A stretch of DNA of 64,000 bases from Kocuria soli. Its GTDB lineage: Bacteria > Actinomycetota > Actinomycetes > Actinomycetales > Micrococcaceae. The notes below the pieces were generated by a model that saw only the letters and a program-made list of their open reading frames with translations, did not search any database and had not been told where the DNA came from. Location of the stretch: positions 1 to 64,000 of the forward strand of contig NZ_RKMF01000013.1 in the NCBI RefSeq assembly GCF_003797835.1. The letters are read 5' to 3'. Both the position numbers and the translations under genes were made by a program. Below are positions 1-17,342 of this stretch, one piece after another. The first letter of the stretch is position 1. Each line of letters opens with the position of its first letter.

Positions 1-1
1 G

Positions 2-94
2 TATCACCGGCAGCGAGCGCAGGACACGCTCGGCGGGTTGACGCCCATCGAGTTCGAAGCGAAACTAACCGAGCCGCTCACACTCGCGGCCTAA
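2..94 (+). CDS. IS3-family transposase OrfB, C-terminal fragment (5' truncated by window edge)
   Basis: Only the final 30 residues and the TAA stop are present. They read YHRQRAQDTLGGLTPIEFEA followed by ten more residues, and resemble the C-terminus of IS3-group DDE transposases, where a YN-R-RRH-xLG-x-TPIEFE stretch follows the catalytic glutamate. The catalytic domain itself would lie outside the window, so whether this copy is active cannot be judged. It probably belongs to the same IS type as the fragment at 18259-18905, because the terminal repeats agree. Confidence 0.75.
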   Translation, partial: YHRQRAQDTLGGLTPIEFEAKLTEPLTLAA

Positions 95-232: not shown

Positions 233-577
233 ATGTATTCGGGGCTGGTGTCTATGGCGTTGGTGGCTATGCTCGTCGTGGTGTTTCTCTATGCCCTGCA
301 CCGGCGCACTGCCGTTGCGGCTCGTCTGATCGTCTCTCTGCCCTTCCAATCCGGCTGGATCCCGAATGAGCACGCTCTCTCCCGGTTCCACGTCCGGTGG
401 TACTTGGCTTCTCTGGTGTTTCTTGCCTTCGACGTCGAGATGTTGTTCATGTACCCATGGGCGGTGGTTGTGCTCGAGAAGGGCGCCTCCGCGGTGGCAG
501 AGATGTTCCTGTTCCTGGGTGCCCTGCTCGTCGCCGTGCTGTGGGCGTGGAGGGAAGGAGCCTTCCGATGGGTCTGA
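233..577 (+). CDS. NuoA-like membrane subunit of a complex-I-like system
   Basis: The protein has 114 residues and three predicted membrane helices. It keeps the core NuoA signature: the loop and helix SRFHVRWYLASLVFLAFDVE followed by MLFMYPWAVVV. In respiratory complex I, NuoA lies beside the quinone site. Here the usually conserved ECGFDP loop is replaced by QSGWIP, so the loop cysteine and glutamate are gone. The start at 233 is preceded by GGAGGA with good spacing; an upstream in-frame start would add a non-conserved tail. It is the first gene of an eight-gene operon and overlaps the next gene by 10 bp. Confidence 0.85.
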   Translation: MYSGLVSMALVAMLVVVFLYALHRRTAVAARLIVSLPFQSGWIPNEHALSRFHVRWYLASLVFLAFDVEMLFMYPWAVVVLEKGASAVAEMFLFLGALLVAVLWAWREGAFRWV

Positions 578-1749
578 CCGACGCCCTGGCCAGGTATGCC
601 CTTCGCGCTACCCATGTTCTCGTGGTCGAGGTGCCCGGCGAGTGGCGGACCCGTGTCGGATTGGAACAGCAGATGCTGCGCCGAGGCTGGCGCCCCGCCT
701 GGACACCAGCAGACGCGGACGTGCTTGCCGTGTGCGGCATCCCGGGCCCCGCGCTGGCTGAGAACGTGGGTCAGCTTTGGGAGCAGATGCCCGGCCCGCG
801 TGTGCGCGCCGACATCGGCTCTCTCTCCCACGTGAGCTCCGCCCTCGACGACGCTGCCACCTTGCTGCTCGACACCCCGCACCATCGGGCGGACGCCCAG
901 AACCGACCAGAGAGACCTCAGCTCCCCGAGCCCCACGGCCAAAGTGACGACGACGGCATGGATCACGGCGGCCACGGCCATCACGGGGAGCACCAGAGCG
1001 CAGATCACAGCGACATGGGCCATGGTGGCCACGACGGCATGGACCACGGCGGGCATGGTGGGATCGACATGGCCCCGGAAGGGATCCCACTCGCGACAGG
1101 AGGTCAGGACCGCGACGGCCTCGAGATGGATGTTCTTCATCTGCCGTGGGGTCCTGTGCTGCCGTTCTGGCCGGCCGGCCTGGTATTACGTTGCGCGTTG
1201 CAGGGTGATGTCGTAGTCGAGGCGGGGGCGTCCGTCATTGACGATGCGCACCACCATGGGCCCGGCGAGGGACACCCCGCGCAAGCGCCGTGGGCTGCGG
1301 TGCGATGCGACAACGCCATGGCCTTGTTGGCACTGGCCGGGGCCGAGGACGTTGCCGTCCGTGCGCGCCGGGCTCGGGATGCGCTGCTCGACGGTAATGG
1401 GGATGCTGCACGAGACGCCGTCACACGGCTGCACCGGGCAGTGCGGCGGTCCCGGTTGCTGCGCTGGTCTTTGCGAGGCGTGCTGCCGCTCACGGCGTCC
1501 GACCTGGAAGATCACGGCCTGCCAATGTCCTGCCTCGGGGACGCCCACGACCGCCTGGTGTCGCTCGTAGAGCGGGTGCGGGCCCAGGTGCATGACCGTG
1601 GCCCGATGAATCCGTCCGGGACAGGTGCGGTGGTCTGGGACGAGCTACCGCACTTGATGACGGGACTGGAGCTGGCGACTGTGCGCTTGGCGGTGGCCAG
1701 TCTTGACCTGGACCCGCTCCCGGGTGCCCGGGAGGTGGCCCGTGCCTGA
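568..1749 (+). CDS. NuoB-like/NuoD-like fusion with a His/Met-rich insert and no iron-sulfur cysteines
   Basis: This is a 393-residue protein I place by motifs. Residues about 1-95 resemble NuoB: ADVLAVCGIPGPALAENVGQ leading to LWEQMPGPR aligns with the NuoB stretch ending QMPEPK, but the four cluster-N2 cysteines are absent. Residues about 127-170 are a linker rich in His, Asp, Met and Gly, with GMDHGGHG twice. Residues about 190-220 (WGPVLPFWPAGLVLRCALQG, then DVVVEA) resemble the NuoD start GPQHPxxHGVLR..LDGE, without its quinone-site histidines. The remainder is helical and ends before nuoH with an 8-bp overlap. If the reading is right, it would be a non-redox plug joining membrane arm and cytoplasm, possibly metal-binding. 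Start 568 has a GGAAGGAG Shine-Dalgarno. Confidence 0.6.
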   Translation: MGLTDALARYALRATHVLVVEVPGEWRTRVGLEQQMLRRGWRPAWTPADADVLAVCGIPGPALAENVGQLWEQMPGPRVRADIGSLSHVSSALDDAATLLLDTPHHRADAQNRPERPQLPEPHGQSDDDGMDHGGHGHHGEHQSADHSDMGHGGHDGMDHGGHGGIDMAPEGIPLATGGQDRDGLEMDVLHLPWGPVLPFWPAGLVLRCALQGDVVVEAGASVIDDAHHHGPGEGHPAQAPWAAVRCDNAMALLALAGAEDVAVRARRARDALLDGNGDAARDAVTRLHRAVRRSRLLRWSLRGVLPLTASDLEDHGLPMSCLGDAHDRLVSLVERVRAQVHDRGPMNPSGTGAVVWDELPHLMTGLELATVRLAVASLDLDPLPGAREVARA

Positions 1750-2677
1750 GGCCGTGGTGATGACCGTGCCCGGTTACTGGGCTGTCCTGGCAGCTGTGCT
1801 GCTGGGCGGTCTGGCCGTGTTTGCGGCTGCCCTGGACGCTGGTCTGTCCGACCGGGCGCAGGGCCTCGGCGGTGGCTGGGGGGCGCCTTTGGCCGGCACC
1901 GCCCGACTGCTGCGCCAGCGGCGGCGCACCACAGTGGCCGCTGACGCCGTGCTGTGGCGGGTTGGGAACGCTGGGATGCTGATGGGTGCGCTGCTGATGG
2001 TGGCTGTGGTGCCCCTGGGATGGTGGGCCCTGGCAGATCTCGATGTGGGCGTGGTGTGGTTCAACGCGGTCGACGTCATGGTCTGGGCACTGGTGTGGTT
2101 AGCGGGCTGGGGAGCGAATTCGACCCACAGCCTGGTGGGCGGCTACCGGTTCCTGGCCCACGGGCTGGCCTACGAGCTGCCGCTGATGTTCGCCCTGGTG
2201 GCCCCGGCGATCGCGGCCGGTAGCCTGAGCGTCGGGGACGTCGTCGCGGCCCAGGAGGGGCTGTGGTTCGTGGTGTGGATGCCGGTGGCGTTCGTGGTCT
2301 TTCTCGTGGGTGTCACGGGTTTTTCCGTGTGGGGGCCGTCCGCCCCGGCTCTGGGCGCTGACATCGCCGGCGGGGTGCTATCCGAGCTTTCGGGGGTGGA
2401 CCGCCTCGTCTTCCTGGCCGGGCGCTATGCGTTCCTGGCCGCGGGTGCTGCGTTCTCAGTGCCGCTGTTCCTGGGCGGGGGCGCCGGCCCGGTGCTGCCG
2501 GGCTGGGCGTGGTCGCTGGTGAAGACCGCGGCGGTGCTGGGCGTGCTGGTGTGGTTGCGACGGAAGCTGCCCGCGCTCCGGCCGGACCGCTTCATGGAGA
2601 TCGGGTGGGTGGTGATGTTGCCGGCCGCGCTCCTGCAGGACCTGGTCGTTGCTCTCATCGTCGTGGGGAAGGCCTGA
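1742..2677 (+). CDS. NuoH-like membrane subunit (degenerate quinone loop)
   Basis: The 311-residue polytopic protein matches NuoH in length class and in landmarks such as GGYRFLAHGLAYELPLMFAL and the C-terminal RFMEIGWVVMLP. NuoH normally carries a very conserved acidic loop, ETNRAPFDLPEAE...ELVAGYHTEYS, that couples quinone chemistry to proton transfer. The equivalent stretch here is SVWGPSAPALGADIAGGVLS followed by ELSG, with almost all of the acidic and arginine residues lost. The GTG start at 1742 overlaps the previous stop by 8 bp, so translation is probably coupled. The subunit may anchor the arm without binding quinone. Confidence 0.75.
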   Translation: MPEAVVMTVPGYWAVLAAVLLGGLAVFAAALDAGLSDRAQGLGGGWGAPLAGTARLLRQRRRTTVAADAVLWRVGNAGMLMGALLMVAVVPLGWWALADLDVGVVWFNAVDVMVWALVWLAGWGANSTHSLVGGYRFLAHGLAYELPLMFALVAPAIAAGSLSVGDVVAAQEGLWFVVWMPVAFVVFLVGVTGFSVWGPSAPALGADIAGGVLSELSGVDRLVFLAGRYAFLAAGAAFSVPLFLGGGAGPVLPGWAWSLVKTAAVLGVLVWLRRKLPALRPDRFMEIGWVVMLPAALLQDLVVALIVVGKA

Positions 2678-2681
2678 GATC

Positions 2682-3245
2682 ATGCTGATCGGTATCGCGT
2701 TCTGGGTGCTGGCCGTGGTGGCGGTGGCCGCCGGGGTGGCCGTGTTCGTGGTGGACTCGATGGCCCGGGCCACCTATGCCCTGGCACTGTCCTTCATTGC
2801 TGTAGGGGTGCAGATCCTGCTGCTGGGCCAGAGCTATCTGGGGGTCATCACGATCTTGATGATGGTGATGGAGATGGCGGTGATGGCCGTGTACATGGTG
2901 ATGTTCATGGGCATGAACCCGGCGCTGATGCCCATGGACATGACGCACGGGAAGAAGACCGCCATCGGCGCCTCCGCCGGTGTCTTCGTGCTCCTGGCCG
3001 CCGGAGCGCTGTTGATCCCGTGGCCGGAACGACGCGGGGTCCCGCCCGAGGACGTCACCGCCGCCCTGGGTCTGGAGATCATGGGGGAGAAGATGCTGGT
3101 CATGGCGGTGATCGGCCCCGTCATGGTGGCCACGATCGTGGCCGGGGTGGTGTTGGCCGCCCACCGCAGCCGCTACGACCGGTTCGGCGACGACCTGCGC
3201 CGGCGCCCTGCGGACGATCCTCAGGCCGGGGGTGTGGGTCGATGA
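2682..3245 (+). CDS. NuoJ-like membrane subunit, methionine-rich
   Basis: The 187-residue protein has about five membrane helices and resembles NuoJ/Nqo10. The third helix region (LMMVMEMAVMAVYMVMFMGM and the next residues) has an exceptional density of methionines and a glutamate where NuoJ usually has a glycine-rich pi-bulge segment. A membrane glutamate there would be well placed for ion transfer. The methionines could simply be hydrophobic filling or could reflect soft-metal contact. It starts 4 bp after nuoH and overlaps nuoK by ATGA. A long cytoplasmic C-terminal tail follows the last helix. Confidence 0.75.
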   Translation: MLIGIAFWVLAVVAVAAGVAVFVVDSMARATYALALSFIAVGVQILLLGQSYLGVITILMMVMEMAVMAVYMVMFMGMNPALMPMDMTHGKKTAIGASAGVFVLLAAGALLIPWPERRGVPPEDVTAALGLEIMGEKMLVMAVIGPVMVATIVAGVVLAAHRSRYDRFGDDLRRRPADDPQAGGVGR

Positions 3246-3544
3246 CGCTCCAGACCGTGCTGGTCGTGGCCGCCGCGCTGTTCGCGGTGGGCCTCTACGG
3301 GGCGCTGTCCCAGCAGGTGGTGGTGATGGTGATGATGGGCCTGGAGCTAATGATCAATGGGGTGCTGCTGGCCGCGGCCGGGTTCTGGTGGTTCTTGGCC
3401 CCGGACCCGTCCGGGCAGGTGCTGCTGTTGGTGGTGCTGGCGGCGATGACCGTAGAGATGGCTATGGGCTTTGCCGTGGCCACGCTGGTGCACCGTCGTC
3501 GGCGCACCGACATGACCGACATGGCTGAGGACCTCGCCCGATGA
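3242..3544 (+). CDS. NuoK-like membrane subunit
   Basis: The 100-residue, three-helix protein is a typical NuoK. Both functionally important membrane glutamates are present, one in MMGLELMINGVLLAAAGF (NuoK Glu36 equivalent) and one in AAMTVEMAMGFAVATLVH (Glu72 equivalent). NuoK is related to MnhC/MrpC and forms part of the central hydrophilic axis that moves protons. The start is set by the ATGA overlap with the NuoJ-like gene. Retention of both glutamates argues that ion translocation is under selection although the redox parts are missing. Confidence 0.85.
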   Translation: MTLQTVLVVAAALFAVGLYGALSQQVVVMVMMGLELMINGVLLAAAGFWWFLAPDPSGQVLLLVVLAAMTVEMAMGFAVATLVHRRRRTDMTDMAEDLAR

Positions 3545-5454
3545 CCGGGGGGCAGGCGGCCCTACTGGCGATGGTGGTGCTCCCCGCTGTGGTCGGCGCC
3601 GGACTGTCTTTATCCCGCCGGGCCGAGGCAGCATCGGCACCCATCGCGGTGGCTACTGCCGTGCTGACCACCGCCCTGGGGGTCGTGGCTGCCCTGGCAC
3701 GCCCGACGCTGGCGGTCCCGTTCGTGGCGGGGGCCGAGTTCGCCCTGGAGGTCGACGCCCTCGCCGCGCTGATCGTACCGATGGTCACCACGGTGACCCT
3801 TCTGGTGCTGGTCTTTGCCGCCGGAAACATCCGGTCCTCCCGGGCGCGGTTCCACGGGTTGATGCTGGTCTTCGCCGCCGCGGCGCTGACTACCGCGGCG
3901 GCAGCGAGCCTGCCGGCGTTGCTGTTCGCCTGGGAGATCATGGGGGCGACCTCCTACGCCCTGATCGGCTTCTGGTGGCGGGAGCCCCACCGGGTTTCCG
4001 CGGGGCTGACCGCCTTTATCACCACCCGCACCGCCGACCTCGGCCTCTACGTGGCGGCGGGGGCGGCACTGGCCGGTGGGGCCGGCATGGCCCTGGCCGA
4101 CCTGCCGGATGCCGCCGCCCCATGGCGGGATGTGCTCGCCGCCGGGATCTTGGTGGCGGCCTTGGGCAAGGCCGCGCAGTTACCGTTCTCTTTCTGGCTG
4201 TCCGGGGCGATGAACGGTCCCAGCCCGGTGAGCGCGCTGCTGCATTCGGCGGCGATGGTGGCGATGGGCGGCTACCTGCTGTTGCGCATGCAGCCGTTGC
4301 TGGCCGCGACCGGGTGGGCCGGTCCGGCGGCGGCCTGGATCGGGGTGGTCACCGCGGTACTGCTGGGGGCCGTGGCCTTGGCACAGCGGGAGCTCAAGCA
4401 ACTGTTGGCCGCCTCCACGGTCGCCCAGATGGGTTTCGTGGTGCTGGCCGCCGGTGTGGGCGCCGTCAGTGGGGGCACGGCCCATCTGGTGGCCCACGCG
4501 GCGACCAAGGCGCTGTTGTTCCTGGCGGCCGGGGCGTGGCTGAGCGCATTGGGCACCGAGAAGCTCCATCGGCTGCGGGGGGTGGCCCGTCGCTGGCGGC
4601 TGGTGGGCGTCACCGCCACCGTCGGGGCGCTGGCCCTGGCCGGGATCGCCCCGCTGTCGCTGTGGGCGACCAAGGACGCTGTGCTGGCCGGGGCGCTGGA
4701 GGCCTCCCCGTGGCTCTATGCCGCCGGACTCCTGGCGGCAGCCCTGTCGGCGGCCTATGCGGGCAAGGCCCTGTGGACGGTCTGGCGACGCGGCGTGCCG
4801 GTGCAGGCGCAGCAGGGCGGCACCGGAAAGGTGGGGGTGCTGGAGCAGGCCCCGCTGGTGGTGCTCGCCGTCGGGGCGGCGGTGCTGGGTGTGCTGGCCC
4901 TGCCGCCGCTCGGCCCGGTGCTCGCTGAGGCGCTGGGCGGCCACGGCGGGGTGTCCCCGCTGGGGCTGCTGGTCTCGGCCGGGCTCGCCCTGGCCGTGCT
5001 GCTAGCCCTGCTGCACTGGCGTGCCCCCGAGCCGGGGTGGGCTCTGCACTGGCTGGGCCTGGAGGCCGCCGCGCACGCCGTGGTCGTCCGCCCCGCCTTC
5101 ACCGTGGCACACGCCCTGGCGCGGTTCGACGACCATGTGCTCGACCGCGCCGTGCACGCCGTGGCCGGGGCCGTGCCCAGGATCGCCCGGGCAGCTGCAC
5201 AGGTCGACGATCGGGTCCTCGACCCTGGGATCGAGACCACTGCGGCCGCCGCCGAGGCCACTGGGCGCGCCGCCGCCCAGATCGACGACGCCGGGATCGA
5301 CGCCACCGTCGAGGGTGTGGCCGCCCGGATCCGCCGGCTCGGACAGCTGGCCCGTGCCCCGCAGACCGGGGCGATCCACCAGTACCTCTTCCAGGCCGTC
5401 GCGGTCCTCGCGATCGGCGTCGCCGCCTACTCCGTCTATGCCGTGATGGGATGA
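3541..5454 (+). CDS. NuoL-like antiporter-type subunit
   Basis: The 637-residue protein belongs to the NuoL/MrpA antiporter family. Key ion-path residues are visible: Glu132 in FAWEIMGATSY, Lys210 in GKAAQLPFSFWLSGAMNGPS, His235 in LLHSAAMVAMGGY and Lys323 in HAATKALLFLAAGAW. The C-terminus holds an amphipathic segment with three DD..LD-type repeats (about residues 525-605), the counterpart of the lateral helix HL, and a final membrane helix. It overlaps neighbours by ATGA at both ends. It is expected to translocate protons or sodium; what drives it here is unknown. Confidence 0.85.
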   Translation: MTGGQAALLAMVVLPAVVGAGLSLSRRAEAASAPIAVATAVLTTALGVVAALARPTLAVPFVAGAEFALEVDALAALIVPMVTTVTLLVLVFAAGNIRSSRARFHGLMLVFAAAALTTAAAASLPALLFAWEIMGATSYALIGFWWREPHRVSAGLTAFITTRTADLGLYVAAGAALAGGAGMALADLPDAAAPWRDVLAAGILVAALGKAAQLPFSFWLSGAMNGPSPVSALLHSAAMVAMGGYLLLRMQPLLAATGWAGPAAAWIGVVTAVLLGAVALAQRELKQLLAASTVAQMGFVVLAAGVGAVSGGTAHLVAHAATKALLFLAAGAWLSALGTEKLHRLRGVARRWRLVGVTATVGALALAGIAPLSLWATKDAVLAGALEASPWLYAAGLLAAALSAAYAGKALWTVWRRGVPVQAQQGGTGKVGVLEQAPLVVLAVGAAVLGVLALPPLGPVLAEALGGHGGVSPLGLLVSAGLALAVLLALLHWRAPEPGWALHWLGLEAAAHAVVVRPAFTVAHALARFDDHVLDRAVHAVAGAVPRIARAAAQVDDRVLDPGIETTAAAAEATGRAAAQIDDAGIDATVEGVAARIRRLGQLARAPQTGAIHQYLFQAVAVLAIGVAAYSVYAVMG

Positions 5455-6947
5455 GCATGCTCAGTACGATCGTCTTCCTGCCCCTGGCGGCCGCCGCCGT
5501 CCTGGCCGCGGTCCCCGCGATCCGGCCCGCCGCCGCTCGCTGGATCTGGGTCACGGTGAGCGTGGCCGAACTGGTGCTCATCGGTGTGCTCTGGGCCAAC
5601 TACGAGACGCCGGGGGCGAACGAGTTGGCGTTCGAAGAGCAGATGCCCTGGATCCCGGGGGTGGGCAGCAGCTATCACGTGGGCGTGGACGGTCTGTCGT
5701 TGCCGTTGCTGGCGATGACCGCGGTGGTCTTTTTGGCCTGCGCCGTCTACGCCTTCCGGGACAACGACCGGCCCCGGGCGCAGGCGGCCCTGTTCCTGTT
5801 CCTGCAGGGCGTGAGTCTGGGTGTGTTCGTGGCGGCCGATCTCATCCTGTTCTTCGTCTTCTTCGACCTCTCCATCGTGGGCATGTACTTCGTGATCGCC
5901 GGGTGGGGGCACGGCAGCTCCGCCCGTTCGGCCCTGAAATTCTTCCTCTACACGTTCCTGGGCTCCCTTTCCCTGCTGCTGGGTTTCATCGGGCTCTACG
6001 TGGCCTCCACCCCGCACACCTTTGACATCCCGGAGCTGGTCGCGGCCACCCCGCTGGACGGGAACCCGCTGGCCGGAGGCTTGGTGCTGGCAGCGATCCT
6101 GGTGGGTCTGGCCGTGAAGACCCCCACCGTGCCCTTCCACACCTGGTTGCCGCCCGCGCACACGGACGCCCCGGCCACCGGATCGGCGGTACTGGCCGCG
6201 GTGCTGCTGAAAATGGGGACCTACGGGTTCGTGCGCATCGCCATGCCGATGCTGCCGGAGGCCTGGCGGGCGTGGGCATGGGTGATCGTGGCCGTCGGTG
6301 TGGTCTCGGTGCTGTACGGGGCGTTCGTGGCTCTGGCCCAGACGAACCTCAAGCGCATGATCGCCTACACCTCGGTTAACCACATGGGCTACATCGTCCT
6401 CGCCCTCGGGGCCGTTGGGCTGGTGGTCGACGATGCCGCCCAGGCTCGTTCCGTGGCGGTGACCGGCGCGGTCACCCAGATGGTCAGCCACGGGCTGATC
6501 ACCGCCGCGCTCTTCCTGCTGGCCGGGGTGATGCAGAAGAGGGCGGGCACCTACGACATGGGTTCCTACGGTGGGCTGGCCGGCCCGGCCCCGCGTTACG
6601 CGGCCCTGTTCGCGATCGGGGCCTTCGCATCCCTGGGCCTGCCGGGGTTCTCGGGGTTCATCGCGGAGTTCCAGATCTTCGCCGGCAGTGTGGCCGTCGC
6701 CCCAGTCACCGCGATCGCGCTGCTGGGCATCCTCGTCACCGCCGCTCTGTTCCTGCGGGCCCTGCAACGGGTCTTCACCGGACCCACGGAGGGTCGATCC
6801 GCCGGATTCGCCGACGTCCGCGCTGAAGAGCTGTGGTCGGTGGTCCCATTGCTGGGTCTATCGGTGCTCATCGGCGTGCTGCCCCGGGTGCTGCTCGATG
6901 TGCTCGGGCCGGCCTCGGCGGCGCTGGTCGGCCTGGTGGGGAGGTAG
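5451..6947 (+). CDS. NuoM-like antiporter-type subunit
   Basis: The 498-residue, roughly 14-helix protein belongs to the NuoM family. The channel lysine is in VKTPTVPFHTWLPPAHTDAP (Lys223), followed by the LLKMGTYGFVR lysine, the NLKRMIAYTSVNHMGYIVLA motif and a late glutamate in GFIAEFQIFAG. The otherwise invariant helix-5 glutamate is an aspartate here (FFDLSIVGMYF, Asp139), a conservative change. The start overlaps the NuoL-like stop (ATGA). It should form the second ion channel of the membrane arm. Confidence 0.85.
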   Translation: MSMLSTIVFLPLAAAAVLAAVPAIRPAAARWIWVTVSVAELVLIGVLWANYETPGANELAFEEQMPWIPGVGSSYHVGVDGLSLPLLAMTAVVFLACAVYAFRDNDRPRAQAALFLFLQGVSLGVFVAADLILFFVFFDLSIVGMYFVIAGWGHGSSARSALKFFLYTFLGSLSLLLGFIGLYVASTPHTFDIPELVAATPLDGNPLAGGLVLAAILVGLAVKTPTVPFHTWLPPAHTDAPATGSAVLAAVLLKMGTYGFVRIAMPMLPEAWRAWAWVIVAVGVVSVLYGAFVALAQTNLKRMIAYTSVNHMGYIVLALGAVGLVVDDAAQARSVAVTGAVTQMVSHGLITAALFLLAGVMQKRAGTYDMGSYGGLAGPAPRYAALFAIGAFASLGLPGFSGFIAEFQIFAGSVAVAPVTAIALLGILVTAALFLRALQRVFTGPTEGRSAGFADVRAEELWSVVPLLGLSVLIGVLPRVLLDVLGPASAALVGLVGR

Positions 6948-6951
6948 TTCG

Positions 6952-8394
6952 GTGGAGGCCGGGATGTCCGGGATGCAGATGCGGCCCGAGCTGCTGCTGC
7001 CAGAGATCATCGTCTTCGTCGGCGGTCTCGTGGTGCTCCTAGGGGGGTCCTTCCTGCCCCGGGATCGACAGTGGATCGCCCGAGTCCTCGCCGCCGCCGT
7101 CCTGCTGGGCGCTACAGGGGCCGCCACGCTTGCCATGGCCGGTTCGACACAGGCCGCGTTCAGTGGCACCTTCGCCGTGGACATCGCCACCAATGCCGCC
7201 CGGGTAATCGCCGCTTTCACGACCCTGCTGGTCCTGGGTGTGGCCGCCGGCGAGATCGGCGGCTCCGCCCGGGAGTCCGACACCTACGCGCTATTGCTGT
7301 TCGCGACCACCGGGGTCATGGTGCTCGCCGGGGCCACCGACCTGGTGGTGCTGATCGTCGGGTTCCTGCTGGCGAGCATCCCGCTCTACGGGATCGTTGG
7401 GCTGGGGGGTGGGGCCGCCGGGGCGGAGGCGGCCCTGAAGACCTACTTGCTGGGCGCGCTCTCCGGGATCCTGCTGATGCTCGGGGTCACCGTGCTCTAC
7501 GCACTGGCCGGCAGCACAGACTATGCCGCGCTCCGGGAGGCGCTTCCCGCCGCACCGGGCGCAGCCGTGGGGGCCGGTGTGCTGGGTGTGCTTGCGGGCC
7601 TGCTCTTCAAGGCCGGCGGGGCGCCCCTACACTTCTGGGTGCCCGACGCCGCCCAGGGTGCCGGGGTCACCGCCGCTACCTTCCTCACCACTGTGCCCAA
7701 GGTCGGGGCGATGGTGGCCGTGTACCGGCTCGTGGCCATGCTGCCCGACGGCGACGGGACCTGGCTGCTCATCGCCGCGCTGCTGGCCACCGCCTCAATG
7801 TTGCTGGGCAACCTGGCCGCCTACTGGCAAGCCGACCCCCGCCGACTGCTGGGCTGGTCTACGGTCAGCCAGGTCGGCTTCCTGCTGGTGCCCGTGGCCG
7901 CCGCCGGGCGCAGTGACCTGGCCCTGCCCTCGCTGCTGTTCTACCTCGCCGCCTACGCGGTCACCAACGTCGCGGCCTTCGCTGTCACGGCCGCCCTGCC
8001 CCGGCATCGTGAACTTGGCTCATACCGGGGTCTGGCCCGGTCCCGACCGGGCCTGGCACTGGCGCTGCTTGTGGCGCTGCTGGGACTGGTAGGTACCCCA
8101 CCGCTGGGGGTGTTCGTCGGCAAGCTCACCACGGCCTCGGCCGCCTGGGATGGTGGTTACACATGGCTGGCACTGATGGTGATGCTCAACAGCGCGCTCA
8201 GCCTGTTCTACTACCTGCGCTGGTTCGGCCCAGTCTTCGCCCACCCAGCCGAGGACTCCCCGGGCTTCCCGCCACGCGGCGGGACCGCCGCCTGGCCGGC
8301 GGCCACCGCCGGCGTCGCCGCCACCGTGAGCCTGGCCCTGGGTATCCTGGCCGGCCTCCTGTGGGCGGCGCTCGACGGTCCCTTGTTGCCGTAA
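6952..8394 (+). CDS. NuoN-like antiporter-type subunit
   Basis: The roughly 480-residue protein belongs to the NuoN family. The channel lysine is kept in LFKAGGAPLHFWVPDAAQGA (Lys220). The helix-5 glutamate found in NuoN proteins (GxELLSLPLY type) is replaced: the region reads GFLLASIPLYGIVGL. The GTG start at 6952 follows GGGGAGG; an in-frame ATG at 6964 with GGAGG four bases upstream is an alternative that would shorten the protein by four residues. It is the last gene of the operon. No clear T-rich terminator follows the stop. Confidence 0.8.
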   Translation: MEAGMSGMQMRPELLLPEIIVFVGGLVVLLGGSFLPRDRQWIARVLAAAVLLGATGAATLAMAGSTQAAFSGTFAVDIATNAARVIAAFTTLLVLGVAAGEIGGSARESDTYALLLFATTGVMVLAGATDLVVLIVGFLLASIPLYGIVGLGGGAAGAEAALKTYLLGALSGILLMLGVTVLYALAGSTDYAALREALPAAPGAAVGAGVLGVLAGLLFKAGGAPLHFWVPDAAQGAGVTAATFLTTVPKVGAMVAVYRLVAMLPDGDGTWLLIAALLATASMLLGNLAAYWQADPRRLLGWSTVSQVGFLLVPVAAAGRSDLALPSLLFYLAAYAVTNVAAFAVTAALPRHRELGSYRGLARSRPGLALALLVALLGLVGTPPLGVFVGKLTTASAAWDGGYTWLALMVMLNSALSLFYYLRWFGPVFAHPAEDSPGFPPRGGTAAWPAATAGVAATVSLALGILAGLLWAALDGPLLP

Positions 8395-8909: not shown

Positions 8910-9560
8910 TTACTCGGCGGGCTGGAGCTCGCTCTCGACGAACCACTTGTGGTTGGTCATCTCCATGCCATCGATCGTGGTATCGACCATGTACACGGTC
9001 TCCTGCGTGGAGCTCTCGATCGTCGCCTCCGCGCCGTCCATGCCGGGCATGTGATCGGCATTCAGGACGACCTCGGTGCCCGCCGGAAGCGGCGCCTCAC
9101 CGGGATCCTCCAGCTCCTCGTGCACGACCCACTTGTGGTCGACGACGGGCTCGCCGCCATCCGTGGGCGTGTAGCTCACCGAGTAGGCCGTCGTGTCGAA
9201 GGCACCGGTGATCGTGGCCTCCGATCCGGCCATGCCGGGCATGTGATCGGCGGTGAGGACCACCGTCGAGTCGACCGGGTAGGTGGGTTCGGGCGCGGTC
9301 TCGATGCCCTCGGGCGGGGGCCCACCCTCGGGGTTGTGCCCGGCCATACCCCCGGAGCCATGATCCATGCCCATGCCCATGTCCATGCCCGATGACTCGG
9401 ACGGCGTGGCCGGCGCAGCCGCCGCCTCGGATGCCGTCTGCGTGGGTGCGGGTTGTGCCTCGTCCTGCTCGGCGGTGCCTCCGCAGGCGGTCAGCGCGAG
9501 CATGCTCGCGGCCGCGGCCGCGGTGGCGGTGATGCCGGTGGTCCAGCTGGACTTCTTCAT
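8910..9560 (-). CDS. DUF1541 (YdhK-family) lipoprotein, putative copper-binding
   Basis: The 216-residue protein begins with a lipoprotein signal ending LALTAC, so it should be anchored outside the membrane. A Met/His-rich segment (GMDMGMGMDHGSGGMAGH) follows at about residues 58-75. Two tandem DUF1541 units come next, each with the ADHMPGM core and a DHKWVV/NHKWFV ending. YdhK-like proteins are often found with copper-resistance genes; direct biochemistry is scarce. Its place beside a copper ATPase and multicopper oxidase supports a metal-binding role at the cell surface. Start 9560 follows AAGGAGACGAG. Confidence 0.8.
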   Translation of the reverse strand: MKKSSWTTGITATAAAAASMLALTACGGTAEQDEAQPAPTQTASEAAAAPATPSESSGMDMGMGMDHGSGGMAGHNPEGGPPPEGIETAPEPTYPVDSTVVLTADHMPGMAGSEATITGAFDTTAYSVSYTPTDGGEPVVDHKWVVHEELEDPGEAPLPAGTEVVLNADHMPGMDGAEATIESSTQETVYMVDTTIDGMEMTNHKWFVESELQPAE

Positions 9561-9683: not shown

Positions 9684-11813
<2,130 letters not shown>

Positions 11814-11824
11814 CGTTGCCTCCT

Positions 11825-12055
11825 TCATCCCAACAATACCCCCCGGGGGTATGTTTGGCGAGGGGTTTCCCGGGAAGCTGTAATGCTTCCTATCCCCGCT
11901 CCGGCCAGCAGGGCGGGCAGGTAGTGGATGGCGGTCAACCCGATCAGAGCCAACTCCCGTGCTGCGTCGATGCCGCTCAGCCGCTTCCGCGATATGGCCG
12001 CGCCTTCGGCGCTCACCACCGGGCCAGCCCCCTGATGCGCAGAGGCCTCGCTCAT
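11825..12055 (-). pseudogene. N-terminal remnant of a DUF418/DUF1624-type membrane protein
   Basis: After a good Shine-Dalgarno (AGGGAGA) the frame gives MSEASAHQGAGPVVSAEGAA and then ISRKRLSGIDAARELALIGL. The RLxGIDAARxLALIG segment is the characteristic first helix of DUF418 or heparan-glucosaminide-acetyltransferase-like proteins, which normally run several hundred residues. Homology stops after about 50 codons, and the frame runs into the promoter of the copper ATPase gene. It is therefore a truncated relic, probably cut when the copper genes were joined here. Confidence 0.5.
11836..11852. promoter_or_regulatory. CsoR-type operator of the copper ATPase gene
   Basis: ATACCCCCCGGGGGTAT is a perfect 8+1+8 palindrome with the TA-flanked C-run/G-run form recognised by CsoR-family copper-sensing repressors. 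It ends 23 bp upstream of the ATPase start codon, so a bound repressor would block the promoter. No csoR gene is visible in the window; the repressor must be encoded elsewhere. Confidence 0.75.
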
Positions 12056-12134: not shown

Positions 12135-13001
12135 TCACAACAGCTGCTGGGTGATCGCTCCCCCGTCCACCGTGCGCAGCACCTGGTTGTCTGCCATTAA
12201 CAGCGCTTCCACGTCCCCGTCATCGGTGCGGCTGGCGCCCAGGGCGGTGACCTCCCCGATAGGTTCTTGGCTGGAGGTCCAGCTCGCCCCGGCATCGGTG
12301 CTGGTCAGCAGGCGCCCGTCGATCCCGGCGGCGACGATGGTGCGGTCATCGGCCCAGGCCACCAACGAGGCCAGCTGGGGGGTGTTCAAGGGGGACCAGC
12401 TGGCGCCGTCGTCGGTGGAGCGCAGCACGCCGTTTTCCGTGGTGGCCAGCACCACGCCCGATTCCGGGGACACGGCCAGGGAGGCCGGGGCGGAGGGGAT
12501 GGAGCGCGTCTGCCAGGTGCGCCCGTCGGGGCTGAACCGAAGCTGCCCGTCGAAGACGACGATCCCGGCGGGGCCGGCAGCCAGGGCGTGGAAATCCGAT
12601 TCCCCGCCGCGAGAGAGCACGCTCCAGCTCTGCCCGCCGTCGGTGGACTCGGCCAGCCCCAATGGCTCGGGTAGGTCCACACCCGGGCCGGGGTGGCCTG
12701 AGGCCAGGTAGCGGCCGTCGGCGGCGATGGTGAAGCCCATCAGATCCACGATGGGCCCGGCCCTGGTCAGGTCCCCGTCCTCGAGACGGTAGAGGCCTTC
12801 GTGGGTGGCCAGCAGCACGACCCCGTCGTCCGGGGCGCGCGTGATGGCATGAACATGGGTGATCGCCGTGGCCCCGCCGGCGCCCTCACCGGAGGGGGCT
12901 GATGTGGAGGTGTCCGGCTGCGGGGAGCAGGCTGCGACCGCCAGCCCGGTTCCTGTGACCAGGCCTAAGCTGAGGAGAGCCCGTCGGGGCATCAGGGTCA
13001 T
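12135..13001 (-). CDS. Beta-propeller (BNR/sortilin-like, F510_1955-type) lipoprotein
   Basis: The 288-residue protein starts MTLMPRRALLSLGLVTGTGL and reaches a lipobox-like LAVAAC, so it should be an exported lipoprotein. The rest is built of repeated Asp-box units such as STDDGASWSPL, STDAGASWTSS and STDGGQSWSVL, which fold into beta-propeller blades in sialidase, photosystem-assembly and sortilin-like proteins. No catalytic residues can be assigned. The start codon overlaps the multicopper oxidase stop as TAATG, so the two proteins are probably made together. A role in oxidase assembly or metal handling at the surface is inference. Confidence 0.75.
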   Translation of the reverse strand: MTLMPRRALLSLGLVTGTGLAVAACSPQPDTSTSAPSGEGAGGATAITHVHAITRAPDDGVVLLATHEGLYRLEDGDLTRAGPIVDLMGFTIAADGRYLASGHPGPGVDLPEPLGLAESTDGGQSWSVLSRGGESDFHALAAGPAGIVVFDGQLRFSPDGRTWQTRSIPSAPASLAVSPESGVVLATTENGVLRSTDDGASWSPLNTPQLASLVAWADDRTIVAAGIDGRLLTSTDAGASWTSSQEPIGEVTALGASRTDDGDVEALLMADNQVLRTVDGGAITQQLL

Positions 13002-14494
13002 TAGCGATACCTCATCTCGATCATCATTCCGGCCTCGCCGTGGTAGAGGTTGTGGCAGTGGACCATCCAATTCCCGGGGTTGTCGGCTTGCAGTTGCAGG
13101 GCCAGGGATTGCATCGGGGCGAGCATGACCGTGTCTTTGCGCAATCCGTTGGGCAGGGCGAAGGTGTGGCCGTGGACGTGCAGCGGGTGGGGCATCATGG
13201 TCTGGTTGGTCGCGTCCAGCTGGACGCGTTGGCCTTCTCGGATCATCAGTGGATCGTTCTTGCCGTAGGGGGCGCCGTTGAACCCCCACTGGTACGGGTC
13301 CATCTGTCCGGTCATCGCCATAGGCAGGGCCACGTCGATGTCTCGGGTTTCCAACCGGGCGGTCTCGGCCGGTTCCAGGTCGGCGCCGATCAAGGCCGGG
13401 CAACGCAGTTCCTTCGGGGTCACCGTCGGGGCTGGGGCGGCGCCGGGGCCGGTGCGGATCAAGGCCAGGGCTTGGCCGTCCTTGCCCATGGGGGCGGCCA
13501 CGAACGGGAAGACCCCGTCGGCCAGGGTGACGGTGGCGTCGTAGCGTTCACCCATCCCGATGGCCAGCGCGTCCGTCTCCTGCGGCTTCACGGGGAACCC
13601 GTCGGTGTGTGTCACCTCCATGCGGTGCCCGTCCAGAGCGACGGTGAAGATGGTGTCGGCGGCGGCGTTGATGATCCGCAGCCGCACCCGGTCCCCCGGT
13701 TTGGCGGCCAGCACATCCGGGGCCTCCGGCACCTTGCCGTTGATCAGGTAGTGCGGGTAGGTGACGTCCCCAGCGTCCTGGCCGTAGGGCGAGTCTCCAC
13801 CGCCCATCATTGCTCCGTGATCCATACCGCCCATGGCCTCCGGGGAGCTCATGTCCATGTCCCCGTGGCCCATTCCGGCCATGCCTCCGTGGCCGGCCTC
13901 GTTCCCACTGGAGGAGGTGAGCATCTGGAGCACTTCCTCGGGAGTGCGTCCCGTGCCGTCGAGCCAGTCATCGAGCACGAGCACCCATTCGTGGTCATAG
14001 CGCCCTGGTTCTCTGGGGTCGTCGATGATCAGCGGGGCGTACAGAGCCCGGTCCAGTTGGACCCCGACGTGGGGGTGGTAGAAGTAGGTCCCCGGATCCG
14101 GTGCGGTGAAGTCGTAGGTGTAGGTGCTCCCGGCGGCGATCGGGTCCTGGGTCAGCCCTGGCACTCCGTCGGCGGCGGCTTCCAGGGCGATGCCATGCCA
14201 GTGCACGGTGGTCTCAGCCGGCAACTGGTTCTCAACGGTGATCCGCAGCCGATCCCCGGCCGTGGCCCGGATCAATGGTCCGGGGACCGTGTCACCGTAG
14301 GCCCACGTATCGACCGGCAGGCCTCCCAGGTCCAGGGTCGCCGGCTGTGCGACAAGCTTTTTCTCCACCAGGGCCCGGCCGGGACGTGACGGTGCCGCGG
14401 AGGAACCCATGGCAGGTGCACCCCCTGCCAGGACACCAGCACTGAGCAGGCCGAAGCCACCAGTCATCAACCGTCTGCGGGAAACCTGAGTCAT
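13001..14494 (-). CDS. Multicopper oxidase, Tat-exported (CopA/CueO-like)
   Basis: The 497-residue protein begins with a twin-arginine signal (SRRRLMTGGFGLLSAGVLAG). Copper ligand motifs appear in order: HWHGIAL, HPHVGV, HPLHVHGHTF and HCHNLYHGEAGM, giving the type 1 site and the trinuclear centre. A Met/His-rich insert at about residues 215-255 contains GMGHGDMDM and GGMDHGAMM, like the Met-rich copper-binding regions of CueO. Such enzymes oxidise Cu(I) or phenolics outside the cell. The start at 14494 has an AAAGGA Shine-Dalgarno; any longer frame upstream is antisense to the regulator genes. It shares a promoter region with the divergent two-component system. Confidence 0.9.
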   Translation of the reverse strand: MTQVSRRRLMTGGFGLLSAGVLAGGAPAMGSSAAPSRPGRALVEKKLVAQPATLDLGGLPVDTWAYGDTVPGPLIRATAGDRLRITVENQLPAETTVHWHGIALEAAADGVPGLTQDPIAAGSTYTYDFTAPDPGTYFYHPHVGVQLDRALYAPLIIDDPREPGRYDHEWVLVLDDWLDGTGRTPEEVLQMLTSSSGNEAGHGGMAGMGHGDMDMSSPEAMGGMDHGAMMGGGDSPYGQDAGDVTYPHYLINGKVPEAPDVLAAKPGDRVRLRIINAAADTIFTVALDGHRMEVTHTDGFPVKPQETDALAIGMGERYDATVTLADGVFPFVAAPMGKDGQALALIRTGPGAAPAPTVTPKELRCPALIGADLEPAETARLETRDIDVALPMAMTGQMDPYQWGFNGAPYGKNDPLMIREGQRVQLDATNQTMMPHPLHVHGHTFALPNGLRKDTVMLAPMQSLALQLQADNPGNWMVHCHNLYHGEAGMMIEMRYR

Positions 14495-14583
14495 GATTCC
14501 TTTCCGAGGCACAGCAGGGCACGAACGACGACCACCATTCTGGATCCGGGCGCGGGCACAATGACTGGGTTTTTCTTGAAGAT

Positions 14584-14609
14584 TCAGCGAAGACTGCGGA
14601 GAGTCAGCG
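14584..14609. promoter_or_regulatory. TCAGCG direct repeats in the divergent oxidase/regulator promoter
   Basis: TCAGCG occurs at 14584-14589 and again at 14604-14609, about two helical turns apart. This spacing suits an OmpR-type regulator dimer. The site lies between the multicopper oxidase gene (minus) and the response regulator gene (plus). The assignment to the adjacent regulator is inference. Confidence 0.3.
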
Positions 14610-14653
14610 CTCTTGCGGTGACCCGGCCACAGCGTGGGGGCCACACTGGAGGC

Positions 14654-15364
14654 ATGAACCCTGGCACCGATTCCGCGACCCTTCCGGGACGGGTGCTCGT
14701 GGTCGACGATGAGAAGCCCCTGGCGCAGATGATCGCGACCTATCTCGTCCGCGCCGGCTACACCGTGGGCCAGGCCCACACCGGTCCCGCCGCCCTTGAA
14801 GCAGCCCGAAGCCAGCACCCGGACGTGGTGGTCCTGGATCTGGGACTGCCAGGACTGGACGGGATCGAGGTGTGCCGCGCCCTTCGGTCCTTCTCCGAGT
14901 GCTATGTGCTCATGCTCACCGCCCGTGGGGACGAGGACGACAAGCTGGCCGGACTGGAGGTGGGGGCCGATGACTACATCACCAAACCCTTCAGCGTGCG
15001 CGAACTCGTCGCCCGGGTCCATGCCGTGCTGCGCCGCCCGCGCACCGTCGCCGTTCGAGAGGCACCACGGGTCTTCGGGGACCTGGCCATCGACCTCGCC
15101 GCCCACGAGGCCCGGGTGGCCGGAGACGCTGTCGCGTTGACGCGCACCGAGTTCGACCTCCTGGCAACCCTCTCGGCCGGCCCCGGGCGGGCCTACTCCC
15201 GCCGTCAGCTCATCGACATCGTGTGGGATCCGTCCTGGGTGGGCGACGAGCGGATCGTGGACGTGCACATCGGACATCTGCGCCGCAAGCTCATGGACGC
15301 ACAACCCGATCTTGATTGCATCAGCACAGTCCGCGGTGTCGGTTACCGGATGGCAAGCCGATGA
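14654..15364 (+). CDS. OmpR-family response regulator
   Basis: The 236-residue regulator has an N-terminal receiver domain with the acidic pair in VVDDEKPL, the phospho-acceptor aspartate in VVVLDLGLPGLDGIE and the conserved lysine in DYITKPFS. A C-terminal winged helix runs from TRTEFDLLATL to VHIGHLRRKL and VRGVGYRM. It should bind DNA as a dimer once phosphorylated by the kinase encoded just downstream, with which it overlaps by ATGA. Its position divergent from the multicopper oxidase suggests a metal-responsive (CopR/CusR-like) role; the signal is not proven. I chose start 14654, preceded by GGAGG. Confidence 0.85.
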   Translation: MNPGTDSATLPGRVLVVDDEKPLAQMIATYLVRAGYTVGQAHTGPAALEAARSQHPDVVVLDLGLPGLDGIEVCRALRSFSECYVLMLTARGDEDDKLAGLEVGADDYITKPFSVRELVARVHAVLRRPRTVAVREAPRVFGDLAIDLAAHEARVAGDAVALTRTEFDLLATLSAGPGRAYSRRQLIDIVWDPSWVGDERIVDVHIGHLRRKLMDAQPDLDCISTVRGVGYRMASR

Positions 15365-16506
15365 GCGGGCACCGCCCACGGGGGTTGGCCTCCCGGTTCT
15401 TCCTGGCTCAGGCCATCGTGGTGATCGCCAGTATCCTTGCCGCGGTCCTCGCCGCATCCTTGGCCGGCCCGGCGATCTTCCACGAACACCTGCTGCGCGC
15501 TGGGGCCGGACAGGGTGCCACCCAGCTGATGCATGTGGAACAGGCTTACCGCGACACCAACCTCTGGACCCTGGGGGTGGCCCTGGCCACTGCCCTGGTG
15601 TGCGCGCTGGGTGTCACGTGGTTGTTCACCCGCCGCCTCCAGCGCCCGATCGACGCGCTCGCCCAGGCGGCCCAGGCTATGGCCCGCGGTCGCTTTGACA
15701 CCCGGGTCCCCGCGATGGGCGCCGGCGCGGAGGTGGATGCCCTGGCCGGGGCGTTCAACACCATGGCCGCCCAGTTGGAGCGCACCGAGGACACCCGCCG
15801 ACGGATGCTCTCCGACCTGGCCCATGAGATGCGCACCCCCATCTCTGTGCTCACCGTGTACCTGGAGGCGCTTCAGGACGGGGTCGCGCACTGGGACGCG
15901 ACCACCAGCGAGCTCATGGGGGATCAGCTGGCCCGACTCACCCGGTTGGTGGAGGACATCCACGACGTCTCCCGCGCGGAGGAGGGCCGCATCGTCCTGG
16001 AGCGCGCCGAACAACCCGTGGTCGAGCTGGTGCGCGCAGCCGCTGAGACCCACCGGGAGGCCTACGCCGCCGAAGGCGTGGCCCTGAACGTCGACGTCGG
16101 CGAGGCCGCCGGGGACATCTCGGCCGACCGGCAGCGCATGGGCCAGGTGCTGGGCAATCTGCTCTCCAACGCCCTGCGCCACACCCCACCCGGCGGACAG
16201 GTCACGCTCAGCGCCATCCGACAGGTCCCAGGGCGGGTGGCCATCCGTGTCGCCGACACCGGCGACGGCATCAGCCCCGAGCAGCTGCCCCACCTCTTCG
16301 AACGCTTCTACCGCGGCGACACCGCCCGCGACCGCGACCACGGTGGCTCCGGGATCGGGCTGACCATCTCCAAGGCCCTGACCGAAGCCCATGGCGGACG
16401 CCTCACCGCCGCCTCCCCCGGTGTCGGGCAGGGCGCGGTCTTCACCGTGGAACTACCCACCCATCATCGGACCGGGCCATCCCCGACTACGGAAATCGCA
16501 CGATGA
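15361..16506 (+). CDS. Sensor histidine kinase
   Basis: The 381-residue kinase has two membrane helices (about residues 12-35 and 62-83) flanking a very short extracytoplasmic loop, then a HAMP domain (RRLQRPIDALAQAAQAMARG). The H-box is DLAHEMRTPISVL, the N-box LGNLLSNALRHTPPGG, and the ATP lid carries DTGDGISPEQLPHLF and GGSGIGLTI. It should phosphorylate the preceding response regulator. The small sensory loop lacks an obvious Met/His cluster, so copper sensing cannot be read directly. The start is fixed by the ATGA overlap. Confidence 0.85.
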   Translation: MSGHRPRGLASRFFLAQAIVVIASILAAVLAASLAGPAIFHEHLLRAGAGQGATQLMHVEQAYRDTNLWTLGVALATALVCALGVTWLFTRRLQRPIDALAQAAQAMARGRFDTRVPAMGAGAEVDALAGAFNTMAAQLERTEDTRRRMLSDLAHEMRTPISVLTVYLEALQDGVAHWDATTSELMGDQLARLTRLVEDIHDVSRAEEGRIVLERAEQPVVELVRAAAETHREAYAAEGVALNVDVGEAAGDISADRQRMGQVLGNLLSNALRHTPPGGQVTLSAIRQVPGRVAIRVADTGDGISPEQLPHLFERFYRGDTARDRDHGGSGIGLTISKALTEAHGGRLTAASPGVGQGAVFTVELPTHHRTGPSPTTEIAR

Positions 16507-16994: not shown

Positions 16995-17342
16995 ATGGCA
17001 GCACCGAGGAAGTACCCCGACGAGCTTCGGGAGAGAGCCACGAGGATGGCAGTTCAGTCACGGCGCGATCCATCGACGAGGTCGGGAACGTTTCGCCGTG
17101 TGGGCGAGCAGCTCGGGATCAATCCTGAGACTCTGAGGAACTGGGTCGTGCAGGCCGAGGTTGACGAGGGGCACCGTCCCGGGACCACGACCAGCGAGTC
17201 CCAGCGCCTGGTCGAGCTGGAGAAGGAAGTGCGTGAGCTGCGCAGGGCGAACTCGATCCTGAGGTCAGCCTCGGCTTTTTCGCGGCGGAGCTCGACCGCC
17301 CACAGCGTTGATCGTGGAGTACATCGACCAGTACAGGCATGA
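16995..17342 (+). CDS. IS3-family OrfA (helix-turn-helix), C-terminus frameshifted
   Basis: The protein has an N-terminal helix-turn-helix (EQLGINPETLRNWVVQAEVD) and a leucine-zipper-like region (LVELEKEVRELRRANSILRS). In related elements OrfA ends SASAFFAAELDRPQR before a stop. Here the frame reads SASAFSRRS because a T-run at 17276-17280 has five Ts; one more T would restore the usual ending. This may be a one-base deletion that blocks normal OrfAB fusion, or a slippery site. Start 16995 is preceded by GAGGAG. Confidence 0.75.
   Translation: MAAPRKYPDELRERATRMAVQSRRDPSTRSGTFRRVGEQLGINPETLRNWVVQAEVDEGHRPGTTTSESQRLVELEKEVRELRRANSILRSASAFSRRSSTAHSVDRGVHRPVQA

Follow-up and report, generated by a model that had tools for sequence, protein, structure and literature searches.

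The window analysed here is a 64,000-nucleotide stretch of Kocuria soli DNA (NZ_RKMF01000013.1, positions 1 to 64,000), beginning at the end of contig C3 in a host genome of 2.95 Mb that is listed as 100% complete. Eight genes on its forward strand (233–8394) encode relatives of the complex I subunits NuoA, NuoH, NuoJ, NuoK, NuoL, NuoM and NuoN, together with a fusion of NuoB-like and NuoD-like parts (the B/D fusion). Judged from sequence comparison, there is about an even chance that this operon encodes a complex I derivative that does no redox work and handles Cu(I), or some other soft metal ion, with coupling to ion flow. The sequences show a retained membrane arm and invariant membrane methionines; searches turned up no electron-carrying subunit, the B/D module is rich in His and Met or carries HMBD domains, and copper genes are enriched nearby. 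Relatives of the operon occur in many soil and marine bacteria, and the pattern suggests that a relative of complex I lost its electron carriers, gained apparent copper-binding parts and was rebuilt for metal ions.

Membrane arm, B/D fusion and redox module

The gene identities given in an original prediction, made from the sequence alone, were confirmed by Pfam and NCBIfam. Seven of the eight genes score over the Pfam cut-off in complex I families, the exception being the B/D fusion, and the membrane arm subunits A, H, J, K, L, M and N are all present. In order along the strand are the NuoA-like subunit (233–577; PF00507, E 1e-22), the B/D fusion (568–1749), the NuoH-like subunit (1742–2677; PDB alignments, and PF00146, E 2e-44 for 1760–2674), and the NuoJ-like (2682–3245; PF00499, E 9e-10), NuoK-like (3242–3544; PF00420, E 4e-13), NuoL-like (3541–5454; PF00361, E 1e-47), NuoM-like (5451–6947; PF00361, E 7e-65) and NuoN-like (6964–8394; PF00361, E 7e-48) subunits. 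Among the NCBIfam matches listed, only that of NuoM lies above its curated cut-off (TIGR01972, 483 bits, cut-off 263.8), those of NuoL and NuoN falling below. The NuoH-like gene starts at either GTG 1742 or ATG 1760; an annotated NuoH relative in Rhodococcus overlaps its fusion gene by 8 bases.

The B/D fusion consists of a NuoB-like part (about nt 568–900), a disordered linker rich in His and Met (about nt 901–1131) and a NuoD-like part (about nt 1123–1728). A sequence profile and structural comparison by Foldseek identify the NuoB-like part and a NuoD fold, the structural support covering mainly residues 179–387; for the NuoB part there is the profile and one lower-ranked Foldseek row (7r43_B), which we take to be NuoB. 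Corresponding proteins of relatives match PF00346 (the NuoD-like protein of Sulfitobacter and the fusion of locus L225), and canonical NuoB and NuoD queries match the L225 fusion directly. A fusion unrelated to NuoB and NuoD, as structure prediction might have revealed, is ruled out by the profile, the NuoD fold, the PF00346 matches of relatives and L225.

The operon was compared over 114 loci: the window, 6 plasmids, 80 loci of named genomes (L042–L121, the best 80 of 125 encoding loci) and 27 loci of a class-wide sample (L122–L148). The last two sets overlap and are not independent (L066/L124, L109/L123). Canonical NuoB, NuoC, NuoD, NuoF, NuoG and NuoI queries (NuoE was not queried) found a match at one of these loci, a NuoG of 27% identity at the edge of L130; NuoF and NuoG are absent from the other 113, and NuoI had no match at any of the 114. 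Searches of the host genome for the NuoD family and for the NuoF family (PF01512) found no match. A NuoD-family match is present in 58 of 60 class-sample genomes, the two without it being the host (G000) and a genome of the same family (G002). Apart from the operon, the only PF00361 matches in the host are two genes on contig C11 (1096 and 569 aa), which look Mrp-like by frame size. Redox genes lying just outside the window are ruled out by the plasmid relatives and by searches of the host's own genome, again leaving NuoE aside.

The residues tied to redox work are lost as well, as had been proposed. The NuoA-like subunit retains FDVE (D67, E69) and has lost the loop Cys. Compared by eye with the Fe-S (iron–sulphur) ligand motif of NuoB and the His motif of NuoD, the B part of the fusion has no Cys pair and no downstream cluster Cys, and the quinone His motif of the D part is replaced. 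Of the acids in the PFDLPEAE loop of NuoH, the D survives in 7 of 113 rows and neither E survives in any; the acid that follows is Asp in 112 rows, and 110 rows retain a Glu further on. CxxC, the metal-ligand motif of the NiFe large subunits of membrane-bound (Ech-type) hydrogenases, does not occur among the invariant or near-invariant columns of 59 fusions (alignment A2, the window and 58 of 78 fusion rows). With redox subunits unfound and the Fe-S, quinone and NuoH acidic-loop residues lost, there is good support for the view that the predicted product does not work as a dehydrogenase.

The ion path is largely retained, including the FDxE of NuoA, the NuoK glutamates (E35 and E72) and key residues of NuoL and NuoM. 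The Glu of transmembrane helix 5 (TM5) in NuoM is replaced by Asp in 108 of 110 rows, and the earlier statement that most of the NuoM path is kept holds with this change. The ion translocation that had been proposed would be a possible role, and NuoN has lost its canonical ion pair (below).

Methionine pattern and metal-binding sequence

The NuoJ-like subunit carries methionines that set it apart from NuoJ of ordinary complex I (window residue numbers are used; for NuoA and NuoJ they equal alignment positions minus 5). Eleven of them (M27, 60, 61, 65, 68, 72, 76, 78, 85, 87 and 138) are present in 113 of 113 family rows, which comprise 102 distinct sequences, and in 74 of 74 clusters at 90% identity. 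The same columns hold Met in 8–9 of 9 proteobacterial family rows (L226 and L227 being near-identical, and L224 excluded) and in 0 of 22 ordinary rows, 17 of which have gaps at residue 85. The ordinary rows are five of eight actinobacterial sequences, Komagataeibacter L200 (an ordinary full nuo operon that serves as a control) and 16 proteobacterial sequences, many of them closely alike; the columns were first detected with the 113 family rows and five ordinary ones.

Most of the pattern falls in residues 60–89 (2859–2948, by aligned columns), with M60, M61, M63, E64, M65, M68, M72, M74, M76 and M78 followed by a loop with M83, M85, M87 and H89. M74 is common to ordinary NuoJ, and the other methionines of this stretch are family-specific. 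A Tyr found in all 22 ordinary rows corresponds to M61 in all 113 family rows, and a Gly two residues on (22 of 22) to M63 in 108 of 113; the extra Glu, E64, is invariant across the family. Methionines 63, 83, 134 and 141 are conserved mainly in the actinobacterial type, proteobacterial rows mostly being without M63 and M83.

NuoK has family-specific methionines at M29, M31, M69, M73, M75 and M91, several beside its two conserved Glu (six of eight ordinary rows were available for comparison). Median Met content is 9.6% in NuoJ against 3.1% in ordinary rows and 9.5% against 4.9% in NuoK, and is somewhat raised in NuoA (4.2% against 2.6%), where Met70 and Met73 are family-specific and stand beside FDxE, and His47 and His53 are invariant within the actinobacterial-type family. 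Family NuoH, NuoL, NuoM and NuoN lie below the ordinary Met content, except that in three proteobacterial rows NuoN (2.8–4.2%) and one NuoM (4.9%) lie above it. The Salinispora rows share the NuoJ, NuoK and NuoA methionines, as invariant columns of alignment A5 (the window and 67 of 70 NuoJ rows). A structural model of NuoJ has five helices, the third at residues 51–76. In a helix-face test the stripe M61-E64-M65-M68-M72-M76 favours one face (R 0.78, p 0.003, for residues chosen post hoc). By the positive-inside rule, the loop after helix 3, the C-terminus with its His-rich extras and the B/D module would face the cytosol. Methionine motifs of the MxxxM kind serve for Cu(I) in CTR-type and RND-type transporters, which have folds differing from those of the operon's subunits; the likeness lies in the motifs, and no sequence relation to the operon was seen.

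Metal-binding sequence recurs in the B/D module in several forms. Most fusion copies have a His-rich linker, the length and composition of which vary freely. Sulfitobacter has the NuoB-like and NuoD-like parts as two proteins, the second of which has five HMBD domains besides its PF00346 match (E 4e-13). L225 has a single fusion, ordered B-HMBD-His-HMBD-D, with two HMBD domains. NuoJ itself has a His-rich tail in Roseivivax and a His/Met-rich insert in Methylobacterium.

Copper neighbourhood and spread of the operon

Downstream of the operon in the window are genes for a Met/His-rich DUF1541 protein, lipoprotein-like by eye (8910–9560, reverse strand; PF07563, E 3e-47), a P-type ATPase with a CPH motif, presumably CopB-type (9684–11828, reverse; PF00122, PF00702), a multicopper oxidase (13001–14440, reverse; PF07731, PF07732, PF00394), a response regulator (14561–15364, forward; PF00072/PF00486) and a sensor kinase (15316–16506, forward; PF00512/PF02518). 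A protein that matches BNR repeats weakly, below cut-off, is encoded at 12135–13403, its frame running over the end of that of the multicopper oxidase; Arthrobacter FB24 has a gene for an F510_1955 family glycosylhydrolase close to its operon (L199:9443-10354).

Neighbours at other loci were typed by clustering of flanking open reading frames, Pfam searches with 20 cluster members and tblastn with known proteins. The commonest recurrent ones are DUF305 (29 loci), multicopper oxidase (26), DUF326 (26), HMA (25), P-type ATPase (21) and CsoR (20). The sought copper genes (P-type ATPase, CsoR, HMA, DUF326 and multicopper oxidase) were counted against 33 controls, arbitrary 20-kb regions of carrier genomes unmatched for plasmids or islands, with kinship ignored throughout. 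At least one is present at 34 of the 49 named loci (of 80) with full flanks, each at least 20,500 bases, compared with 1 of 33 controls (Fisher p 4e-10), and at 12 of 26 class loci, L148 having been dropped as a fusion match only (12/26 vs 1/33; p 8e-5). Five of the six plasmids have at least one, as do 52 of all 80 named loci (53 with DUF305). The association with copper genes that the prediction had suggested looking for in other actinobacteria has support from these counts outside the window. The His count of the fusion is higher near copper genes (Mann–Whitney p 1e-4, with kinship uncorrected). The Roseivivax operon is adjoined by CueR, P-type ATPase, HMA and multicopper oxidase genes, with cytochrome c genes nearby. 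An Ion_trans_2 ion-channel gene lies near 13 loci (for example L105:19399-20319), mostly downstream, and near none of the 33 controls. In Kineococcus the operon is followed by MerR-like and mercuric-reductase-like proteins, identified by eye (L117:14762-16701), so other soft metals may be involved.

All eight genes stand in order on one strand at 107 of the 114 loci; of the other seven, six are cut by a contig end and L148 is a fusion match only. Chance or an assembly artefact is ruled out by this conservation. A five-fusion profile found the fusion in 27 of 394 class genomes, the host included, and 17 of 138 genera; among plasmid records, 11 have DNA relatives of the operon and 15 have the fusion. 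The best 80 loci of the named-genome scan are actinobacterial except for two in Lysobacter (L054, L055), a gammaproteobacterium, which are of the actinobacterial type (71–89% identity for the membrane subunits); their sequences suggest transfer between phyla. Searches of plasmids with NuoH led to operons in Sulfitobacter, Roseivivax and Methylobacterium. Such operons are present in at least 7 of 398 Pseudomonadota genomes, four near the Sulfitobacter type and three near the Roseivivax type, as gene sets confirm; this is a lower bound, 33 genomes having passed E 1e-36 and neighbourhoods having been fetched for seven, and the Lysobacter centre (actinobacterial type) missed the strict threshold. 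In an unrooted NuoH tree of 66 rows, which includes 32 of the 113 family rows, the 25 ordinary rows split from the remaining 41 (support 100/99), Methylobacterium L198 forming a long branch of unsure placement. In Halorussus L201 the NuoH relative stands alone, and the locus does not belong to this kind of operon.

Carriers include mycobacterial and soil plasmids, and some copies are on plasmids or near transposases. The contig starts within an open frame (window 1–94), the end of which resembles an IS3-type transposase tail by eye, and an rve-type transposase is encoded at 17308–18240; in Rhodococcus L001 the operon has an IS3 transposase on either side, the upstream one close to it. Two divergent copies per genome are found in Mycobacterium sp. 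WUMAC-067 (L068, L083) and in G387 (L122, L132). Pseudarthrobacter L004 is a broken copy, and the fusion rows L079 and L113 are frame-broken. Near its operon the Sulfitobacter plasmid has one more antiporter-like gene (PF00361), which is shortened and lies on the other strand (L196:5017-6240).

Proposed mechanism, alternative readings and meaning

In the mechanism proposed, the cytosolic B/D module would collect Cu(I), which would pass to a methionine-lined path in NuoJ, NuoK and NuoA that replaces the quinone site and E-channel. The export of Cu(I) would be coupled to the entry of H+ (or Na+/K+) by way of NuoL and NuoM, which would make the complex a metal/cation antiporter, and the exported copper could then be dealt with outside by multicopper oxidase and binding proteins. 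This specific form, a Cu(I) or soft-metal pump driven by the proton-motive force in which the quinone module has become a metal-binding module and the E-channel a Met-lined metal path, falls somewhat short of an even chance; it would be a new functional class in the complex I superfamily. The suggestion that the complex is driven by or sensitive to copper has gained from the neighbours, the metal-binding linkers, the HMBD domains and the NuoJ methionines, with copper as the driver kept at the level of a conjecture.

Several observations weigh against this reading. The canonical ion pair of NuoN is lost, the TM5 Glu being gone in 109 of 109 rows; the TM7 position is Lys in 86 rows and Glu in 23. 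When all eight family-specific methionines of NuoJ helix 3 are taken, no face preference appears (R 0.37, p 0.19), and a continuous Met path through NuoJ is only conjectural because the model is weak (mean predicted local distance difference test, pLDDT, 64.6). Methylobacterium L198 is without part of the NuoJ pattern and has no B/D gene next to nuoA. The excess of copper genes may partly mirror the metal-rich nature of plasmids and islands, and those sought are missing altogether from 15 of the 49 loci with full flanks and from 14 of the 26 class loci. The fusions of those 15 have 8–34 His, L055 (34 His) and L068 (31 His) being without copper neighbours, and seven fusion rows have few His (8–9). 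No transport, binding or phenotype data on the operon were found in the open-access literature.

The same parts could make a copper-gated ion channel or antiporter, in which Cu(I) on B/D and NuoJ controls the flow of H+, Na+ or K+ through NuoL and NuoM and is not itself transported. This is unlikely, though the metal-binding module does occupy the place of the coupling (quinone) module of complex I, the NuoL and NuoM ion-path residues are retained, and the Ion_trans_2 gene is found near 13 loci and no control; invariant methionines across a whole NuoJ helix and the following loop exceed the apparent need of a sensor. The number and spread of the membrane methionines favour transport over gating, and neither is shown. 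A copper-based redox enzyme, with Cu on the His/Met-rich module replacing the Fe-S chain and passing electrons to quinone or an outside acceptor, is improbable. It would account for a metal-binding module standing where complex I has its Fe-S module, for the nearby multicopper oxidase and for the cytochrome c genes of Roseivivax, but the NuoH acidic loop and (by eye) the NuoD quinone motif are lost, and a linker so free in length and composition is unlike an electron path. Very improbable indeed is an inactive, decayed nuo operon hitchhiking on plasmids and islands: despite the copies on plasmids or near transposases and some broken ones, this is largely refuted by conservation, with eight genes at 107 of 114 loci and many invariant residues over 55–79 clusters at 90% identity per subunit.

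The published interpretation is different again. The operon itself is already known in print and is not a new gene set, the original prediction having known of no described system with these genes in a copper-type island: it appears as a 'partial NDH-1' or 'partial nuo' operon in the parts seen of three papers (PMC3314556, PMC6002675, PMC6676996). In Salinispora, Penn and Jensen (2012) report seven nuo genes that form a 'second partial NDH-1 operon', which they read as marine adaptation and for which they give relatives in nine further Actinobacteria and in Proteobacteria (PMC3314556). A 2018 paper on Kocuria flava repeats this reading (PMC6002675), and a 2019 Streptomyces paper, which gives the order nuoA, hypothetical protein, nuoH-J-K-L-M-N, widens it to osmoadaptation (PMC6676996); K. 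marina SO9-6 and Streptomyces SM254, carriers that come from sites rich in copper, are read as osmotic (PMC6002675, PMC6676996). The gene order is the same, and Salinispora L119 and L120 belong to this family; in the text as seen, the published accounts do not name the hypothetical protein as NuoB/NuoD or describe copper or the Met pattern, and 'copper' has no occurrence in the text of PMC3314556. In the sections seen of a copper review (PMC7558416) neither 'nuo' nor 'Mrp' occurs, and fusion identity, Met pattern and copper function of the operon were not found in the open-access literature. A unit that adapts its carriers to salt or to the sea by Mrp-like Na+/H+ exchange or by way of the proton-motive force, with the metal features secondary, is rather doubtful, slightly more so than gating. 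The published distribution in marine and osmotically stressed isolates speaks for it, as do L119 and L120, the fusions of which have only 8 His and no copper neighbours; it leaves the NuoJ, NuoK and NuoA methionines (those of Salinispora included), the HMBD domains and the copper neighbours unexplained. It also sits poorly with mycobacterial and soil plasmid carriers, and no Na+ or osmolyte transporter is among the 13 Pfam-matched neighbour clusters of the 20 scanned (7 were matchless).

Mrp antiporters are likewise redox-free and have antiporter-like subunits related to NuoL/M/N and NuoK. The present operon differs from them in having NuoH, NuoA and a B/D module, and no mrpA–G set with MrpA/D as best matches was found in it, the large subunits scoring best in NCBIfam as NuoL, NuoM and NuoN. 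With complex I it shares a homologous membrane arm, NuoB/NuoD remnants and the same relative gene order; unlike complex I, it has no canonical B, C, D, F, G or I and none of the redox residues discussed above, has lost the NuoN ion pair, and has gained family-specific methionines and a metal-binding linker. The DAB complex (DabA/DabB), in which a complex I-type proton-conducting subunit works with a non-redox cytoplasmic one, is a precedent, in what was seen of its description, for joining such a proton path to a non-redox partner (PMC13144422). DAB has one NuoL-like subunit and a carbonic-anhydrase-like partner, whereas here the full A–N arm stands with a His/Met-rich NuoB/NuoD remnant; among the eight proteins the only Pfam matches over cut-off are of complex I type, with none to DabA, for which the flanks were not searched.

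If the Cu(I) reading is true, the long-range coupling of complex I can work with something else than redox chemistry while the whole membrane arm is kept, and the family would let one study, as a natural experiment, how the coupling site communicates with the antiporter-like subunits. It would also represent a new kind of copper handling, often carried on mobile elements, and would correct the published annotation of these genes as NADH dehydrogenase or as genes of osmotic adaptation.

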